Shown here: in pieces, positions 33,070-41,524 of the stretch | How positions within the stretch are numbered: the first letter of the stretch is position 1 | How the letters are laid out: the number at the start of each line of letters is the position of its first letter | Assembly: GCA_903970615.1 (NCBI GenBank) | Contig: CAJCJH010000075.1 | Coordinates: 1-41,524 of the forward strand | From: Rhodospirillales bacterium | GTDB taxonomy: Bacteria; Pseudomonadota; Gammaproteobacteria; Nevskiales; Nevskiaceae | Direction: 5' to 3' | DNA: 41,524 bases | Notes under the pieces: model-generated | Told to the model about the DNA's origin: nothing | Databases searched by the model: none | Seen by the model: the letters and a program-made list of their open reading frames with translations, nothing else | Made by a program: the position numbers and the translations under genes

Positions 33070-33474
33070 ATGGCAAAGATCACCGGAATCGGCGGAGTGT
33101 TCCTGAAGTGCAAGGGCGATCGCGCGGCGCTGGCGGCGTGGTACCAGCAGCATCTGGGCATGCCGCTGGAAGATTTCGGCGGTGCCATTCTCCGCTGGCC
33201 GGACGACAAGGCGGAAGACCGCGGCCTGACGGTGTGGCATCTGGCGGGCAAGGACAGCCAATGGTTCAGCCCGAGCGAGTCTGCCTTCATGATCAACTAC
33301 CGGGTGGACAATCTCGATGAACTGCTGACGCAGCTGCGCGCGGCGGGTGTAGCTGTGGTTGCCGGCCCGGAGTCGCACGAGAACGGCAAGTTCGCCTGGA
33401 TCATGGACCCGGATGGCAACAAGGTGGAGCTTTGGGAACCGATGCGCTGGGATGAGAAGAACAAGGGTGCGTGA
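33070..33474 (+). CDS. VOC-family (glyoxalase-fold) protein
   Basis: A 134-residue protein of the vicinal oxygen chelate superfamily, with two beta-alpha-beta-beta-beta units: KITGIGGVFLKCKGDRAALA with WYQQHLGMPLEDFGGAILRW, then FMINYRVDNLDELLTQLRAAG and the closing motif WIMDPDGNKVELWEP, whose Glu is a usual metal ligand. Members include glyoxalase I, bleomycin-binding proteins and ring-cleaving dioxygenases, so the substrate cannot be named. I prefer the ATG at 33070 to the GTG three bases earlier; CGGAGAC (33059-33065) is the likely ribosome binding site. It stands alone between rluB and the TPR array. Confidence 0.88.
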   Translation: MAKITGIGGVFLKCKGDRAALAAWYQQHLGMPLEDFGGAILRWPDDKAEDRGLTVWHLAGKDSQWFSPSESAFMINYRVDNLDELLTQLRAAGVAVVAGPESHENGKFAWIMDPDGNKVELWEPMRWDEKNKGA

Positions 33475-33849
33475 AGCCCTTGCCGATGCCGCCTGACAAT
33501 GTACAAATGGCGTTGCTGCAATTCCGCAAGGAATGATGGCTTGCTCTCGCCACGGATTTCGCAAGCGCCCAATCTGAGCCGGCGCCCTCTGCGGCTACGC
33601 ACAGGCATAGGTAACTTCAACATCCTCGCTACGTCCGCTGAAGGCAATGGTATTTGCCGTATTCGCTGGCATAATTCGGATCGATAATCACCGGGTGCCT
33701 CCGCTACGGATGGCAGTGACCCAGGCTGACACTCAAAAATTCGGCGTTGGGGATCAGGGTTCGGGCATGAGCGGAAAGCCGTTGCGATTACTGATGCCCG
33801 CGTCGATACCGATGAGTATCGCTGCGGTCGAGTTGCGGACGCGGCTGGC
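33475..33849. other. Gap before the TolB/TPR array, 375 bp
   Basis: No full gene is evident. The region contains the inverted remnant at 33495-33548 and a plus-strand frame (33647-33853, 68 codons from GTG) whose TGA overlaps the GTG of the first array gene as GTGA. I see no strong promoter pair, though the array must be transcribed from here or from further upstream. The minus strand is open from 33860 into the VOC gene, but apart from the remnant it shows no family motif. Confidence 0.4.
33495..33548 (-). pseudogene. Inverted remnant of a TolB/TPR gene 5' end
   Basis: Read on the minus strand these 54 bases encode ESKPSFLAELQQRHLYIV. The first array gene encodes NAKPSFFAELQRRHVYKV at its start, 13 of 18 identical, with clear DNA similarity too. 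After this the similarity stops and no membrane segment follows; the sequence runs into the VOC gene, and no start codon sits in the right place. It looks like a truncated, decayed extra copy in the opposite direction, abutting the array. Confidence 0.6.
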
Positions 33850-35691
33850 GTGAACGCCAAGCCCTCGTTCTTCGCGGAACTGCAGCGTCGCCACGTCTAC
33901 AAGGTCGGCGCGATGTACGCCGTCGCCGGCTGGCTGCTGGTGCAGGTCATCACGCAGGTGTTTCCAATCTTCGAGATCTCCGCACTGGTGCAGCGTATTC
34001 TGGTGCTCGCGATCATCACCGGCTTTCCGGTGGCGCCGGCGCTGGCCTGGCTGTTCGACATCACGCCGGAGGGCATCGTCAGAACCGGGGGGCTGCCCGC
34101 GAGCGGCGAGAGCCCGGCTGCGGTTCGGGAGCGGCGCGGTACCGACCGCAAGCTCAACTACGTGCTGGCTTCCCTGCTGCTGATGGCACTCGGATACTTC
34201 ATAGCAGAGCGCCTCGGCTACATCCGCGGTGGCGCGCCGCCGCAAGCGGGCGAGGAGAAGTCGATCGCCGTGCTGCCGTTCGCCAACATGTCGGGCGACG
34301 CTGCCAACGATTATTTTTCCGACGGCATCAGCGAGCAGATTCTCGACGTGCTGGCGTGTGTGCCGGGCCTGCACGTCGCCGCGCGAACGTCCTCGTTCTC
34401 GTTCAAGGGCAAGACGGTGGAGGTGCCCGACATCGCCCGCGCCCTGAACGTGCGTGTGGTGCTGGAGGGCAGCGTGCGCAAGCAGGACGACCGCGTACGT
34501 GTGACCGCGCAGTTGATCGACGCCGCCACCGGCTTCCACCTTTGGTCGGAGACCTACGACCGCCAGCTACACGATATTTTCGCGATCCAGGACGAGATTG
34601 CCACGGCGATCGGCGACGAGTTGAAGGTGAAGCTCGGCGACGCGCGCGCGGAGGGCCAGCACCGCGCCGGAACCGCGAACCTGCAGGCCTACGATTGGTA
34701 CTTGCGCGGCATCGCCCTGTGGTCGCAACGGACCCACGAGACGATCGGCCAAGTGATCCACGCTTTCGAACAGGCGACGGCTACCGATCCGCAGTATGCG
34801 CAGGGATATGCCGGCCTGGCACTGGCCTACTCCGTCGCCGGCGATTACAGCAATCGAATCTCCTACAGCGATAGCACCGCGTATGCGCGAGATGCTGCCG
34901 AGCGTGCGATCGCGCTCGACCCGACGCTGCCTGAGCCTTATGCAGCACTCGGCGTCATCGCGCAGCGCGAGGTGCGCCGTGACACGTCGGCCGCATTGTT
35001 ACGGCGTTCGATTGCGCTGGGCCCTTCGTTCGCTACGGCATACCAGTGGCTGGGAACGCTGCTATCGAGCAGTGGCGATCTGGCGGGTGGCTTGGAGATG
35101 CTGGAACGCGCAAGTGCGCTCGATCCGCGCTCCCCGATCGTGTCCCAGAACCATTCGTTCGCACTGCAGGCGCTCGGCCGCTACGCCGATTCGAAAGCGC
35201 TGTGCGAGCACCCCCTGGATGTCGACCCGGACTACGAGGTTTGTCTGGAAGACGTGGGCATGGATGAGCTGCTGCTCGGTCAGTACGATCAGGCGCGCGC
35301 GACGCTGCAGCACTTGGCGGCAGTGCAGAATCCCAGTGCTGCCGGGCAGGGTAACGAGCTGGTCGCGGCGCTCACCGGGCATGGCGACCGGCATGCGCTG
35401 GCGCTGCGCTACGCCAGCTTGGCGCTCGACAGTGAAAACGAGCCGGGTAGCGGTAACGCACTGGAGGCTTACAACATCCCGGCCTTGCTGGTACTGCTGG
35501 GCGAGCACGATCTGGCGCTGGATTTCCTGGAGCGCCTTGCCGGCTTCGCTGGAGGAACCGCGGACTGGGCAATCGTGCTGCCCGCGCTCGATCCCATCCG
35601 CTGCGAGCCACGCTTCATTGCCATCGTGCAGCGCCTCAAAATGCACGATCCGCATGCGGAGAAAGTCTGCGCCGGCAGGGTGTTGCAATGA
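33850..35691 (+). CDS. TolB-like/TPR membrane protein, array copy 1
   Basis: 613 residues from a GTG. Three membrane segments lie in the first 120 residues (about 18-38, 47-68, 103-119) after a short basic start, KPSFFAELQRRHVYKV. Residues 137-265 form a TolB-N/FlgO-like domain of the COG5616 type: KSIAVLPFANMSGD, DYFSDGISEQIL, VVLEGSVRK, HLWSETYDR, DIFAIQDEIA. TPR-like repeats follow from about 278 (AYDWYLRGIALWSQ, LPEPYAALGVIAQ, AYQWLGTLLSSSGDL). It belongs to the SDG subtype with copy 3. The soluble part is probably periplasmic or cytoplasmic scaffold; the family has no settled function. Its TGA overlaps the next ATG (ATGA). Confidence 0.88.
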   Translation: MNAKPSFFAELQRRHVYKVGAMYAVAGWLLVQVITQVFPIFEISALVQRILVLAIITGFPVAPALAWLFDITPEGIVRTGGLPASGESPAAVRERRGTDRKLNYVLASLLLMALGYFIAERLGYIRGGAPPQAGEEKSIAVLPFANMSGDAANDYFSDGISEQILDVLACVPGLHVAARTSSFSFKGKTVEVPDIARALNVRVVLEGSVRKQDDRVRVTAQLIDAATGFHLWSETYDRQLHDIFAIQDEIATAIGDELKVKLGDARAEGQHRAGTANLQAYDWYLRGIALWSQRTHETIGQVIHAFEQATATDPQYAQGYAGLALAYSVAGDYSNRISYSDSTAYARDAAERAIALDPTLPEPYAALGVIAQREVRRDTSAALLRRSIALGPSFATAYQWLGTLLSSSGDLAGGLEMLERASALDPRSPIVSQNHSFALQALGRYADSKALCEHPLDVDPDYEVCLEDVGMDELLLGQYDQARATLQHLAAVQNPSAAGQGNELVAALTGHGDRHALALRYASLALDSENEPGSGNALEAYNIPALLVLLGEHDLALDFLERLAGFAGGTADWAIVLPALDPIRCEPRFIAIVQRLKMHDPHAEKVCAGRVLQ

Positions 35692-37766
35692 GCCAGCCAT
35701 CGCTCATGGTTTCGTTTTTTGGCGAACTGCAGCGCCGCCACGTCTACAAGGTCGGCGCGATGTACGCGGTGGCCGGCTGGCTGCTGGTGCAGGTGATCAC
35801 GCAGGTGTTTCCGATCTATGACATCAGCGCGCATGTTCAGCGTGTGTTCGTCGGCGTGATCGTCGCGGGCTTTCCGGTCGCGGTGGTGCTGGCCTGGCTG
35901 TTCGACATCACGCCTGCGGGCATCGTGAGAACCGAAAGCCTGCCCGCAAGCGGCGAAAGCCCGGCTGCGGTTCGGGAGCGGCGTGGCACAGATCGAAAAC
36001 TCAACTATGTGCTGGGTGCGCTGCTGGTCATCGGCATCGGCTATGTCGTGCTCGAACACGCGCTGCTGAGTCGCCCCGCTGACGCGCCAGCCGTGGCCGC
36101 AGCACAAGACAAATCCATTGCCGTACTGCCGTTCGAGAACCTCTCCGACGACAAGGCCAACGCCTATTTCGCCGAAGGCATTCAGGACGAAATCCTGACC
36201 CGGCTTGCGAAAATCGGCGCGCTCAAGGTGATCGCACGCACCTCGACACAGGCGCTTGCGGCCAAGCCGGGCAACCTGGCCGAGATCGCCAAGCAGCTCG
36301 GTGTCGTCAATATCGTTGAAGGCAGCGTGCAGAAAGTCGGCGATGCCGTCCACATCAACATCCAGCTGATCAAGGCCGCCGACGAAAGCCATCTCTGGGC
36401 GGAAAGCTACAACCGCCGGCTTGATGACGTGTTTGCGGTCGAAGGCGAGGTGGCGCAGACCGTGGCCGACACGCTCAACGCGAAGCTCAGCGGACTGGAG
36501 CAGCAAGCGGTGACAGCGCGACCGACGACCAATCCAGCTGCCTATGAGGCCTATGCGCGCGGCCGTGCGATCGAGACCGCAGCGTTTGATATGCCGCACG
36601 AAGCCAACGCACTGGCGGCCTACGAGGAGGCCGTGCAGCTTGATCCGAATTTCGCCCAAGCCTGGGCCGACATCGGCAGCGTCGCCAGCCTTCTGTATTT
36701 CAACGGAGAGAGCATTGCGCCGGATTTCGTCCGCAAAGCCGCGGAGACGGCGATGGCGCTCAATCCGCAGCTTGGCGAAGCCTGGCGCGCGCAAGGCGAT
36801 TACCGCTACCACGTACTGCGCGATATGGCGGGCGCCGTGCCGTTGTATGAGAAGGCGCAGCAGCTATTGCCCAACGACGCGCGCGTCCATGTCGCGTTGG
36901 CGAGAGTGAATCGTCGGCTGGGAAATTGGCAGGAGTCGCTCGCGCACATGCGCGCCGGCGCGGTGCTTGACCCGTCGAATGTGCCATTGCTGGACGAAGA
37001 GAGCGATCAGCTCCTTTTCTACCTGCGCCGCTTCGACGAGGAACGCGATGTGCTGAGCCACGCACTGAAGCTGGCACCCGGCGATACTGACGCCATCGCC
37101 GCGATGGCGCTGCTGGAGCAGGCGGATGGCCATCTCGATGCCGCTGCCGGCTGGGTATCGCAACTGCCGCCGCACTACGACGTGGCCGGCTGGTATAACT
37201 ACGCGCCGCTGAACCAATACACGTATGAGCGCCGCAACGACAAGGTAATCGAGCTGGCTGAGGCCAGTCTGCCGCCGGGCGAAGGACCGCTGCCGTTGAA
37301 TAGCGCGCTCTACATCGCGATCATGCTCGCGCAAGCGCAGATGCGCTCCGGTCACGCCGACGCCGCACGCGCGACGTATTTGCGCGTCATCCGCTCGATC
37401 AAGCCGACCGCCGACACCCCGGTGCGGATCGACGATGAAGTCGAGTTGAATACCTTGGCGCTGGCCTATGCGGGTATCGGCGACAAGGCCGCCGCTCAGG
37501 ACGCGAGTGCACGCGCGCTGGACGCTTACCGCGACGATGCGATCAACCACGCCGCCAGCGAGATCGGCAAGGCGATCGTCGACATCGAGACCGGCAATCG
37601 CGAAGCCGCGATCGCCGCACTGCCGCATCTGCTGCAAGTCCCTGCCGGTCTTACCGTCGGCCTGCTCAAGCTGGACCCGGTGTGGGATGCCATCCGCGAT
37701 GATCCGCGCGTACAGAAGTTGATCGCCGATCACGCGCCGGCTGCCGAAGCGGGGATGAAACCATGA
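35688..37766 (+). CDS. TolB-like/TPR membrane protein, array copy 2
   Basis: 692 residues. The N-terminal membrane module is almost the same as in copies 1 and 4 (YKVGAMYAVAGWLLVQVITQ), ending in LPASGESPAAVRERR and a third membrane segment (LNYVLGALLVIGIGYVVLEH). The TolB-like domain starts at KSIAVLPFENLSDD (142) and is of the second subtype, shared with copy 4: YFAEGIQDEILTRLAKIGALKVIARTST, NIVEGSVQK, HINIQLI. The TPR part runs from about 280 to 600 and is the longest of the complete copies (PNFAQAWADIGSVASL, PQLGEAWRAQGDYRY). No enzyme motif is visible. It overlaps both neighbours by four bases. Confidence 0.88.
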   Translation: MSQPSLMVSFFGELQRRHVYKVGAMYAVAGWLLVQVITQVFPIYDISAHVQRVFVGVIVAGFPVAVVLAWLFDITPAGIVRTESLPASGESPAAVRERRGTDRKLNYVLGALLVIGIGYVVLEHALLSRPADAPAVAAAQDKSIAVLPFENLSDDKANAYFAEGIQDEILTRLAKIGALKVIARTSTQALAAKPGNLAEIAKQLGVVNIVEGSVQKVGDAVHINIQLIKAADESHLWAESYNRRLDDVFAVEGEVAQTVADTLNAKLSGLEQQAVTARPTTNPAAYEAYARGRAIETAAFDMPHEANALAAYEEAVQLDPNFAQAWADIGSVASLLYFNGESIAPDFVRKAAETAMALNPQLGEAWRAQGDYRYHVLRDMAGAVPLYEKAQQLLPNDARVHVALARVNRRLGNWQESLAHMRAGAVLDPSNVPLLDEESDQLLFYLRRFDEERDVLSHALKLAPGDTDAIAAMALLEQADGHLDAAAGWVSQLPPHYDVAGWYNYAPLNQYTYERRNDKVIELAEASLPPGEGPLPLNSALYIAIMLAQAQMRSGHADAARATYLRVIRSIKPTADTPVRIDDEVELNTLALAYAGIGDKAAAQDASARALDAYRDDAINHAASEIGKAIVDIETGNREAAIAALPHLLQVPAGLTVGLLKLDPVWDAIRDDPRVQKLIADHAPAAEAGMKP

Positions 37767-39550
37767 GCATCAAGCCCTCCTTCTTCGCCGAACTCCAGCG
37801 CCGCCACGTCTCCAAGGTCGGCGCGATGTATGCCGTGGCTGGCTGGCTGCTGGTGCAGGTCGCCACCCAGGTATTTCCGTTCTTCGAGGTGTCGAATGCG
37901 GCGGTGCGATGGGTGGTGATCGCGGTGATCGCCGGCTTCCCCGTCGCGCTGGTGCTGGCCTGGATTTTCGATCTCACACCGCAGGGCCTCGTGCGTACCG
38001 CGGACGTTCCGGCGAGCGGCGAAAGTCCGGCAACCCAGAAGCAGCGGCGTGGCATGGATCGCCGGCTCAATTACCTGCTCGGTAGCCTGCTCCTGCTCAG
38101 CCTTGGCTATCTGGTACTGGATCACACACTGCTGCGGCGCGCCACATCTGGCGATGGCAATGACGGCTCGATCGCCGTGCTGCCGCTGGCCAATACCAGC
38201 GGCGATCCGGCCAACGAGTATTTCTCCGATGGTCTTTCGGAAGAACTGATCGCCGTGCTGGCGAAGATTCCGCATCTCAAGTTGATCGGCCGCAGTTCCT
38301 CGTTCCAGTTCAAGAACCAGTCCGTGGATAGCCGCAGCATCGGCGAAAAGCTCGGCGTGGCGAACCTGCTCGAAGGCAGCGTGCGCCGGCAGGGCGAGCG
38401 CGTGCGCATCGTCGCCGAGCTGATCCGTGCTGCGGACGGCCGCGAGCTGTGGTCGGAGACCTACGATCGTGAGCTGAAGGATGTGTTCGCGGTGCAGAGC
38501 GAAATCGCCGCCGCGGTCGCCGACCAACTCAAGCTGCATCTGCTCGGCGATGTCGGCGCGCCGCGCGCGGCCTCGACCACACAGAACCTCGAAGCCCACA
38601 ACGCGCTGCTGCAGGGCGATTTCCATTTCGCGCGACTGACGCCGGAAGACTCGCACAAGGCGATCGAGTACTACGACGAAGCCATCCGCCTCGACCCCGG
38701 TTACGCGCTGGCCTATGCGCGGCTCTCCATCGCCTGGCGCTTTCTGGCGGCGAGCTACCTGGAGGGTGCGGAAGTCGACGAGGGCTACGCGCACGCGCGC
38801 CGCGCCGCCGAGCAGGCGCTCACACTGGCACCCGATCTGGCCCAAGGGCACGAAGCGCTGGGCGGGCTGCGCCTGACGCCCGATCTGGACTTCGCCGCCG
38901 CTGAAACCGAACTGCGCCGCGCCGTCGAGCTGGCGCCCGCTCTTGCCGGCGCAAGGCAAGTGCTGGCCTATGTGCTGGCTGCGCAAGGGCGCTACGCCGA
39001 GGCCGAAGCCGCATTCCGCCGCGCGATCGAGCTCGATCCGCTGTTGGTCGTGACACAGGTCAACCTGGCGCGCATGCTGGTTGCGCTCGGCCGGCTGGAC
39101 GAAGCCGAAGCTTTGCTGAGTCACACGATCGCCCAGCAACCCACTGCCTTTCACCAGTACGTCCACCTGGTGACGATTGATCTGCTGCGCCACGATGTCG
39201 CCGCCGCAGCCCGCGACGCCGAGCGCGAGCATCCCGGCTTCTGGCTCGACTTCGAACGCGCGCTGGTGAAGCAGGCGCAAGGCGACCCCCACGCCGCCGC
39301 CGCCGCGCTGCAGGACTTCATCGCCAAGCATCAGGACACCGGCGCCTTCCAGATCGCCGAGTTGTACGCGCTGCGCAAGGAGCCGGACAAGGTGTTCGAG
39401 TGGCTCGATCGCTCCCTTCAGGTGCATGACTCCGGCCTCACGCAACTGGTCACGATGCCCTTCGTCGATGCCTACAAGTCCGACCCGCGCTTCATCGCGC
39501 TGTGCCGCAAACTGAAGATCGATCCGGCCGTACTGGCGGAGCTGCCATGA
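37763..39550 (+). CDS. TolB-like/TPR membrane protein, array copy 3
   Basis: 595 residues. The membrane module is the most divergent of the four (SKVGAMYAVAGWLLVQVATQVFPFFEVS, WIFDLTPQGLVRTADVPASGESPATQKQ). The TolB-like domain begins at GSIAVLPLANTSGD (135), lacking the Lys found before SIAVLPF in the others, and is of the SDG subtype like copy 1: EYFSDGLSEELI, LLEGSVRRQGERVRI, LWSETYDRELKDVFAVQSEIA. TPR repeats follow from about 273, well formed (AIEYYDEAIRLDPGYALAYARLS, YAEAEAAFRRAIELDP). Starts in an ATGA overlap with copy 2 and ends in one with copy 4. Confidence 0.88.
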   Translation: MSIKPSFFAELQRRHVSKVGAMYAVAGWLLVQVATQVFPFFEVSNAAVRWVVIAVIAGFPVALVLAWIFDLTPQGLVRTADVPASGESPATQKQRRGMDRRLNYLLGSLLLLSLGYLVLDHTLLRRATSGDGNDGSIAVLPLANTSGDPANEYFSDGLSEELIAVLAKIPHLKLIGRSSSFQFKNQSVDSRSIGEKLGVANLLEGSVRRQGERVRIVAELIRAADGRELWSETYDRELKDVFAVQSEIAAAVADQLKLHLLGDVGAPRAASTTQNLEAHNALLQGDFHFARLTPEDSHKAIEYYDEAIRLDPGYALAYARLSIAWRFLAASYLEGAEVDEGYAHARRAAEQALTLAPDLAQGHEALGGLRLTPDLDFAAAETELRRAVELAPALAGARQVLAYVLAAQGRYAEAEAAFRRAIELDPLLVVTQVNLARMLVALGRLDEAEALLSHTIAQQPTAFHQYVHLVTIDLLRHDVAAAARDAEREHPGFWLDFERALVKQAQGDPHAAAAALQDFIAKHQDTGAFQIAELYALRKEPDKVFEWLDRSLQVHDSGLTQLVTMPFVDAYKSDPRFIALCRKLKIDPAVLAELP

Positions 39551-41524
39551 ACGCACCGACGGCCCGGCCCTCGTTCTTCGCCGAACTTCAGCGCCGCAAC
39601 GTCTACAAGGTCGGCGCGATGTACGCGGTGGCCGGCTGGCTGCTGGTGCAGGTCATCACGCAGGTGTTTCCGATCTACGAGATCAGCACGCACGTGCAGC
39701 GAATCTTCGTGGGCCTGATCGTCGCAGGCTTCCCGATTGCGCTGGTGCTGGCCTGGCTGTTCGACATCACGCCTGCGGGCATCGTGAGAACCGAAAGCCT
39801 GCCCGCAAGCGGCGAAAGCCCGGCCGCGGTTCGCGAGCGGCGCAGTGCCGATCGCAAGCTCAACTACGTGCTCGGTGCACTGCTTGTCATCGGCATCGGC
39901 TACGTCATCCTCGATCACAGCCTGCTGCGCCGCTCTGCCGAAGCGCGAGTCACCGATGCGGCGAGCGACAAGTCGATCGCGGTGCTGCCGTTCGAGAATC
40001 TCTCCGACGACAAGGCCAATGGTTACTTCGCGGTCGGCATCCAGGACGAGATCCTGACGCGGCTGGCGAAGATTGGCGCACTCAAGGTGGTGTCGCGCAC
40101 ATCCACCGAGCAGTTCGCCAGCCATCCGGGCAATCTGTCAGATATCGCCGGCAAGCTGGGCGTGGCCAACATCGTCGAAGGCACCGTGCAGAAGGCCGGC
40201 GAGGCGGTGCACATCAACGTACAGTTGATCCGTGCGGCGACCGACGAGCATCTCTGGGCCGAGACTTACGACCGCAAGCTGGACAACATCTTCGGCGTCG
40301 AGGGCGAGGTCGCCGGTGCCATCGCCGATGCCCTCAAGGCGCGGCTCAACGGCAATGAACGTACCGAGCTGGCGAGCAAGCCGACGCTGAACGCCGAAGC
40401 CTACGACTTCTACCTGCGCGGCCTGAGCGATTACCGCCGGGTCTTCGGGGTCGAAGACCTGCTGTCCGCGTCCGCCAATTTCGCCGAGGCGGTCAAGCGC
40501 GATCCGAATTTCATGCAGGCATGGGCCTACCGCTCGGTCACCGATGGTCTGATCTACTTCCAGGCCATCGACCACAGCGCGGCGCGTCTGGAAGCCGCAC
40601 GCCGGGGTGCCGAGCGTGCGATGCAGCTTGCGCCGGAGTCTCCCGAGGCCTGGATCGCGCGCGGCGAGTTCCTGTATCGCACGCTGGATTTCGACGGTGC
40701 CCGCACCGCCCTGGGCGAGGCGCTCAAGCGTCAGCCCAACAATGCGGAGGCTCTCGCGGAGCTGGGCTATGTCGAGCGCCGCGCCGGCCATTACGAACTG
40801 GCCATCGAGCGCCTGCAGCAGGTGCTGCAGGTTGATCCGGGAAATCTCAGAGACCTCACCGGTTTGGGCGAGACCCTGATGTTTGTCGGCCGGCCGGCCG
40901 AAGCGCGCCTCTGGGTCGACAAGGCCTTGGCACTGCGGCCGGGCGATGTTTCTGCAACCGTACTCAAGGCCTTGACCTATCTGTACGAGGGCAATCTGGA
41001 TGTTGCCGGCGCCTTGCTCGACCCGATGCCGCTGCAGCTCGCCGACTATTTCAAACTGCAAACGCAAGTCCAGCTGCGCGACTACCGCCGCGATTTCCAC
41101 GCCGGCGCCAGCGCCATCCAGGCCCTGCTGTCAGCGCCGGACTTCGCTCTCGATGGGCTCACCGCGCAATGCTATCCGTTGCTGGCTTGGAACCAGCGCT
41201 GGGCCGGGGACGAGAACGCCGCGCAGGCTACGTTCAGGGAAGCTCGAGACAAGCTGCGCGCCCTGCGCGAACGTCTGGGCGACAACGGTTACATTGCCTC
41301 CAGCCTGGCCCTGATCGAAGCCGGTCTTGGCGACGCGCAGGCCGCCGAACGCGAAGGACGGCTGGGTGTGGAGCTGCCCGGCAAGGACCAGTTCAATCGC
41401 GCCGGCCAGCTCACGATTCTGGCCCAGGCACTGGCCCTGTCCGACCGGCGCGACGCGGCGTTTGCCGTCCTCCACGAGCTGGTGGCCAACCCGGTTGGCG
41501 AGAGCGCTGCCGATCTGCGCCTGT
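39547..41524 (+). CDS. TolB-like/TPR membrane protein, array copy 4 (3' end outside window)
   Basis: The ATG at 39547 overlaps the copy 3 stop as ATGA; the frame stays open to the last base, giving 659 codons with no stop, so the gene continues past the window. The order is the same: basic start RPSFFAELQRRNVYKV, three membrane segments in the first 120 residues, TolB-like domain from KSIAVLPFENLSDD (142) of the copy 2 subtype (YFAVGIQDEILTRLAKIGALKVVSRTST, NIVEGTVQK), and TPR repeats from about 281 (PNFMQAWAYRSVTDG, PNNAEALAELGYVERRAGHYELAIERL). Bases 39743-39824 are identical to 35884-35965 of copy 2. Further copies may follow. Confidence 0.86.
   Translation, partial: MNAPTARPSFFAELQRRNVYKVGAMYAVAGWLLVQVITQVFPIYEISTHVQRIFVGLIVAGFPIALVLAWLFDITPAGIVRTESLPASGESPAAVRERRSADRKLNYVLGALLVIGIGYVILDHSLLRRSAEARVTDAASDKSIAVLPFENLSDDKANGYFAVGIQDEILTRLAKIGALKVVSRTSTEQFASHPGNLSDIAGKLGVANIVEGTVQKAGEAVHINVQLIRAATDEHLWAETYDRKLDNIFGVEGEVAGAIADALKARLNGNERTELASKPTLNAEAYDFYLRGLSDYRRVFGVEDLLSASANFAEAVKRDPNFMQAWAYRSVTDGLIYFQAIDHSAARLEAARRGAERAMQLAPESPEAWIARGEFLYRTLDFDGARTALGEALKRQPNNAEALAELGYVERRAGHYELAIERLQQVLQVDPGNLRDLTGLGETLMFVGRPAEARLWVDKALALRPGDVSATVLKALTYLYEGNLDVAGALLDPMPLQLADYFKLQTQVQLRDYRRDFHAGASAIQALLSAPDFALDGLTAQCYPLLAWNQRWAGDENAAQATFREARDKLRALRERLGDNGYIASSLALIEAGLGDAQAAEREGRLGVELPGKDQFNRAGQLTILAQALALSDRRDAAFAVLHELVANPVGESAADLRL

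Follow-up and report, generated by a model that had tools for sequence, protein, structure and literature searches.

The window, the whole 41,524-nucleotide contig CAJCJH010000075.1 of a Rhodospirillales bacterium, corresponds to C75, one of the 126 contigs of a 3.17-Mb draft genome. At its 3' end lies an array of four consecutive, overlapping genes that encode paralogous membrane proteins with a TolB-like domain and tetratricopeptide repeats (TPRs) (Table 1). The open reading frames described in a first-pass annotation, which was made from the sequence alone, are all present, as are the three ATGA junctions, at each of which the start codon of one gene overlaps the stop codon of the gene before it; the start of copy 2 was assigned by hand. 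Because the window is the entire contig, copy 4 is cut, and the count of four is a lower bound. A check for further copies, which had also been proposed, showed that another full copy, of 688 amino acids (aa), stands at the end of contig C69 of the same genome, where its start overlaps by four bases a partial gene for the last 103 aa of a further copy; at the end of contig C82 lie about 70 N-terminal codons of one more. The partial genes on C69 and C82 may be one gene, giving a genome with at least six copies.

The order of three membrane segments, TolB-like domain and TPRs that had been read from the sequence is seen in AlphaFold2 models of copy 2 (mean predicted local distance difference test score 86.6, predicted template modelling score 0.77) and copy 3 (85.0 and 0.58), and the TPRs are recognised by Pfam, with several TPR models above their cut-offs in all four copies. 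Both models begin with a short helix, which leads into a pair of membrane helices; a loop of low confidence connects these to a long third helix, and the alpha/beta domain and the helical repeats come after it. In copy 2 the three membrane helices are formed by residues 19-44, 48-72 and 92-126, and the loop by residues 74-91. TolB_N (PF04052) scores below its cut-off in copy 1 (14.5 bits vs 22.4) and is unlisted in copies 2, 3 and 4, while FlgO (PF17680) stays below its gathering score of 22.6 bits in copies 1, 2 and 4 (14.3, 13.7 and 16.9 bits) and is unlisted in copy 3. No beta-propeller model is among the Pfam matches of the four copies, and they do not qualify as the TolB of the Tol-Pal system.

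A structural parallel is offered by the periplasmic domain of the one-component regulator CadC (3ly7), which was among the best Foldseek matches of copy 2, with a TM-score of 0.71 by target length and a root-mean-square deviation (rmsd) of 5.0 over 333 columns. VIA-align gave a Z of 20.9 and an rmsd of 3.8 for 301 residues, within residues 140-461 of the model. In the model, the part of copy 2 that faces the periplasm matches the sensor domain of CadC, which is likewise an alpha/beta domain followed by TPR-like helices (PMC9214523). A sequence search of solved structures was swamped by TPR proteins. Unlike CadC, the array copies have three membrane helices rather than one, a longer TPR region and no winged-helix DNA-binding domain (PF00486 is not among their Pfam matches with E up to 1). 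Pfam found no output domain in the four copies, and the cyclase catalytic domain PF00211, found in relatives, is absent from them. Copies 1 and 3 match the TolB/TPR part of TIGR04510, an NCBIfam model for a putative peptide modification system cyclase, with 47.2 and 55.9 bits; this is far below the cut-off of 400 bits, and the cyclase part is lacking, which places them outside that family.

Table 1. Features of the array, with related arrays that adjoin TonB-dependent receptor genes.
Feature	Position	Strand	Description	Basis
Copy 1, subtype A	33850..35691	+	613 aa, GTG start	
Copy 1 membrane anchor	33856..34212	+	two-helix hairpin, cytoplasmic loop, third helix	profile match
Copy 1 TolB-like/CadC-like alpha/beta domain	34240..34635	+		
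Copy 1 TPR region	34636..35688	+		Pfam
ATGA overlap, copies 1/2	35688..35691	+		
Copy 2, subtype B	35688..37766	+	692 aa	
Copy 2 membrane anchor	35706..36059	+		profile match and model
Copy 2 TolB-like/CadC-like alpha/beta domain	36087..36488	+		
Copy 2 TPR region	36489..37763	+		Pfam and model
ATGA overlap, copies 2/3	37763..37766	+		
Copy 3, subtype A	37763..39550	+	595 aa	
Copy 3 membrane anchor	37772..38125	+		profile match and model
Copy 3 TolB-like/CadC-like alpha/beta domain	38153..38542	+		
Copy 3 TPR region	38543..39547	+		Pfam and model
ATGA overlap, copies 3/4	39547..39550	+		
Copy 4, subtype B	39547..41524	+	659 codons, 3' end open at contig end	
Copy 4 membrane anchor	39565..39918	+		profile match
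Copy 4 TolB-like/CadC-like alpha/beta domain	39946..40347	+		
Copy 4 TPR region	40348..41523	+	incomplete	Pfam
TonB-receptor-adjacent arrays	L119:2443-4814, L121:3399-5747, L114:3374-5897, L123:8750-11212			Pfam for L119; others by eye

The division of the copies into two subtypes was investigated with 74 genes from 13 genomes, mostly draft assemblies, of the host's genus, taken from fetched loci and the window; a search of the genus gave 85 TolB-bearing places in 16 of 18 genomes, 11 of them outside the fetched loci. Subtype A (about 580-620 aa) carries the motif SDG and subtype B (about 675-715 aa) the motif QDEIL. Within the window YFSDG and LWSETYDR are present in copies 1 and 3, and GIQDEILTRLAKIGALKV and HIN(I/V)QLI in copies 2 and 4, just as first described. 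Four genes could not be typed and were excluded from the A/B counts, and for seven more the type was assigned without the main motifs, in six cases by hand once the TolB tree was available; the result from that tree uses motif labels only (20 A, 43 B and 11 unlabelled rows). The TolB tree (74 rows) separates A from B with a single change and a support of 100, and the TPR tree (64 rows), which carries a long-branch warning, does the same with a support of 98; these and the other tree supports quoted here belong to sets starred in the trees. The sensors fall into two old subtypes.

The alternation A-B-A-B had been taken to suggest duplication of a two-gene unit, and such a unit, recently duplicated and perhaps encoding an A/B heterodimer, was considered here. 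Among the 14 fully typed runs of the genus A is followed by B 11 times, compared with 6.6 under shuffled order (84 of 5000 shuffles as high), and 13 of these runs, several of them cut by contig ends, end in B. The pair formed by copies 3 and 4 is also conserved in one other genome, G017: in the TolB tree the two copies group with the two genes of a coupled pair there (supports of 95 and 99). In the same tree, though, copy 1 groups with genes of G013 and G005 (97), so that copies 1 and 3 each have nearer relatives in other genomes, and their split is far deeper than that between copies 2 and 4. Copy 2 is in no starred set of the TolB tree; in the TPR tree copies 1 and 3 have starred sets with a support of 100 each and copy 2 one of five rows with 97. 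Most runs moreover do not alternate. The window's run is the only one of the 14 with the order ABAB, other arrays in the genus read AABAABB, AAABABB or BB, and besides the BB runs there are single genes. A recent two-gene duplication is thus disfavoured by both trees and we consider it highly improbable.

Close packing, from which translational coupling had been proposed, extends throughout the genus. With the assigned starts, 18 of 32 junctions are exact four-base overlaps, and at 26 an in-frame start codon overlaps the preceding stop. The neighbours at the 32 junctions are AB in 11 cases, BA in 5, AA in 4 and BB in 8, with an untyped gene involved in the remaining 4; in the fully typed runs the counts are 11, 4, 4 and 8, respectively.

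Separate trees of the three regions had been suggested as a check on the subtypes. While the TolB and TPR regions agree on A and B, the membrane region has a different history. The tree of the anchor (the first ~118 codons) requires 18 A/B changes, near the mean of 19.5 for shuffled labels (133 and 138 of 500 shuffles as low). The approximately unbiased test rejects a clade of A anchors (p 8e-8). A and B anchors are more alike within a genome (identity 0.640, 91 pairs) than between genomes (0.523, 944 pairs; 0 of 1000 shuffles as high), a difference that is not seen for the TolB-like domain (0.435 and 0.438). The anchor identity is highest between genes of the same locus, at 0.712 (35 pairs; 0 of 1000 shuffles as high), compared with 0.595 for genes elsewhere in the same genome (56 pairs) and the 0.523 between genomes; the corresponding values are 0.455, 0.423 and 0.438 for the TolB-like domain and 0.221, 0.241 and 0.234 for the TPR region. 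Fourfold sites agree (anchor 0.688 vs 0.589; TolB 0.578 vs 0.560). The excess fades around codon 120, where the linker to the sensor lies. Classing the anchor loops by pattern left 21 of the 74 genes unclassed and is of illustrative use only.

Individual genes give the same picture. Copy 1 is 78.3% identical to G013_C109a_1 in the TolB-like domain and 41.7% in the anchor, whereas its anchor is 78% identical to that of copy 4. Copy 4, with a TolB-like domain 88.7% identical to that of G017_C10_2, has its best anchor match by DNA in copy 2 (87.8%, vs 80.3% for the G017 orthologue), and genes 5 (A) and 6 (B) of the G002 array share 93% of anchor bases and 59% of TolB bases. Of the nine genomes with both subtypes, six show the effect clearly: the window's own (G000), G002, G005 (two pairs only), G010, G013 and G017. 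The same-locus result also holds without G002 and G010 (3 of 1000 shuffles as high). Array neighbours have exchanged their anchors or made them alike, whichever subtype they belong to.

It could be argued that this pattern means nothing for function. Neutral local gene conversion, in which similar 5' ends recombine and selection keeps the sensors distinct, would concentrate the effect within the locus and extend it to synonymous sites, and both are observed. Recombination would also leave remnants like the short N-terminal ones that lie directly after the last complete array gene at C69:10014-10082 (23 codons; L031:9978-10088 on the minus strand) and at G017:C12:720343-720441. Against this stand the end of the tract at a domain linker and the behaviour of B-B pairs, in which the TolB-like domains are more alike at baseline than the anchors (0.688 vs 0.530) but show no homogenisation among genes of one locus (0.696), so that the limit of the tract is not merely where the DNA is most similar. 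We regard neutral conversion as somewhat unlikely, and as the chief rival to a functional explanation.

Relatives of the array proteins indicate what the sensor region may be attached to. Among the 37 loci retrieved with copy 2 as query are proteins in which, by Pfam, this TolB/TPR region comes after a class III cyclase (PF00211), a protein kinase (PF00069, L081) or a TIR (PF13676, L097) domain; L082 and L098 are kinase-like by eye only. The TIR fusion lies at L097:297-2819, in a record titled Opitutia. On contigs labelled Chthoniobacterales the region follows class III cyclases, either as five consecutive genes (L080) or together with hairpin genes (L085), where three cyclase-type genes precede three hairpin-type genes and the last cyclase gene and the hairpin genes are joined by four-base overlaps. 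Class III cyclases with the TolB/TPR region (L080, L085, L089, L090, L118 and L143-L145) share the sensor region of the window copies but have the cyclase domain that these lack. Across the 85 TolB-bearing places of the genus, all of which were scanned for PF00211, four share an open frame with a match (E up to 1e-6), all in G008 and G016 (L118 and L143 in the former, L144 and L145 in the latter). The 908-aa chain at L118:5581-8307 (minus strand) joins a class III cyclase to the same hairpin, a B-type (GIQDEIL-type) TolB-like domain and TPRs, which puts the N terminus of the hairpin in the cytoplasm. Apart from short remnants and fragments, every hairpin match in the genus that no contig end cuts is in frame with a TolB-bearing gene, and the hairpin as a stand-alone partner gene was rejected.

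The alike anchors and differing outer halves suggest that the proteins work as a matched set. The explanation we favour, while giving it a little less than an even chance, is that the array encodes output-less inner-membrane receptors matched through their shared anchor. Each protein would have a CadC-type periplasmic sensor, made of an alpha/beta domain and a TPR superhelix, with a hairpin, short cytoplasmic loop and third helix in place of a DNA-binding, cyclase or kinase domain. Members produced together by coupled translation may meet through the common anchor and form mixed complexes, or alternatively they may report through one shared cytoplasmic or membrane partner; either way different periplasmic signals would feed one output.

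Three precedents bear on the anchor. In Campylobacter Tlp2, Tlp3 and Tlp4 the signalling domains are identical while the sensors diverge, and the two parts give different trees (PMC9769880); they resemble the array proteins as paralogues with a common signalling part and varied periplasmic sensors, but the part they share is a known cytoplasmic signalling domain and that of the array is a membrane hairpin, loop and helix. The co-component systems ToxR/ToxS and VtrA/VtrC consist of membrane-tethered periplasmic partners encoded by overlapping genes (PMC9214523). The array has the same arrangement, but it has no transcription factor and its members, up to seven or more, are paralogues of one another. 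Binding between two operon-encoded TPR proteins of Vibrio vulnificus takes place through their TPRs (PMC12282931). From the Tlp2-4 split, the VtrA/VtrC-type partners and the Vibrio TPR partners we infer that the anchor may be an assembly or signalling interface. A bolder version, which we think unlikely, is that the hairpin, loop and third helix act as an array-specific assembly key for a private hetero-oligomeric receptor with interchangeable sensors, gene conversion keeping the keys matched while the sensors reshuffle; new sensor combinations would then arise without breaking assembly.

Several observations weigh against matched, output-less receptors. Local gene conversion without function would yield much of the pattern. 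Anchor exchange is absent in G001 and G007 and slight in G006, and without the related genomes G002, G005, G010 and G013 the anchor identities are 0.634 vs 0.530, with 71 of 1000 shuffles as high. The last gene (gene 7) of the G002 and G010 arrays retains a separate anchor, and the TolB-like domain itself has a same-locus excess, though very small (0.018; 4 of 1000). The effect did not replicate in 34 hairpin genes from outside the genus, whose anchor identity had no excess relative to TolB (-0.011; 1384 of 2000), and in L089 and L151 TolB is the more alike part; the single loci L154 and L152 do show alike anchors, and 14 cyclase genes, mostly from L080, have an alike N-terminal part (excess 0.226; 8 of 2000). 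Two of the 50 genes in this test were dropped as unclassifiable. Many TPR-only chains reach a CadC-like Z in structure comparison, so the likeness to CadC rests on the match covering both domains. Finally, no partner or output was found for the array. The array's own genome offers no TolB relative with an effector domain as a partner: all five TolB matches there fall on hairpin genes, and both class III cyclases of the genome are encoded on other contigs.

The lack of an output domain would also fit periplasmic scaffolds or chaperones, that is, TPR platforms held at the inner membrane for envelope assembly or transport, for example of TonB-dependent receptors. The arrays of four related genomes, G002 and G010 among them, start ~180 bases downstream of a TonB-dependent receptor gene that runs in the same direction (Table 1). 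Other arrays adjoin unrelated genes, however, and relatives place the same region on signalling domains, and this role seems to us distinctly unlikely.

If the matched-receptor explanation is correct, the array would be chemoreceptor-like in one respect, having a common inner module and varied outer sensors, though of the common module only a membrane anchor would be left, and the exchange of anchors between neighbours would be a natural experiment that marks the part that must match. For the large and functionally blank TolB-like/TPR family this offers a lead, namely what the hairpin touches, with the natural cyclase-hairpin fusion as a starting point. A literature search for such arrays, including COG5616 with TolB, found nothing, most subscription journals being outside its coverage. 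An anti-phage defence system was rejected, none of the four copies matching any defence family in PADLOC-DB 2.0.0 (E up to 0.01). In the phylum, a hairpin profile trained on the genus has matches (E up to 1e-12) in 3 of 299 genomes, one being the window's own, and in the class a hairpin-plus-TolB profile has matches at 1e-20 in 24 of 229 genomes, many of which involve only TolB; runs of hairpin genes in other Gammaproteobacteria comprise eight (L151), four (L152) and two (L154) genes.

Upstream of the array the three genes called are ScpB-, RluB- and glyoxalase-like by eye, and no membrane-tethered transcription factor is among them; on the other side the contig ends at 41524. A promoter scan of 33400-41524 found none, and 4 terminator-like sites vs 4.5 expected. 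One array site, flanked by ilvC-like and pssA-like genes, appears to be conserved (L138:3025-9130, L124:4705-11450, L031:9063-12163). By Pfam the L138 pair sits between a ketol-acid reductoisomerase and a CDP-alcohol phosphatidyltransferase; by eye, a gene like the reductoisomerase flanks L124, and one like the phosphatidyltransferase flanks the C69 array on the opposite side. L124 (G005) also holds family genes that lack part or most of the hairpin, TolB matches with only positions 3-24 or 3-31 of the anchor nearby, through decay or an assembly error. Beside an array in G007, L103:5930-6571 (minus strand) encodes a winged-helix domain followed by FG-GAP repeats, and in the window's own genome G000:C9:852-7823 is a 2659-codon open frame with many TPR matches.

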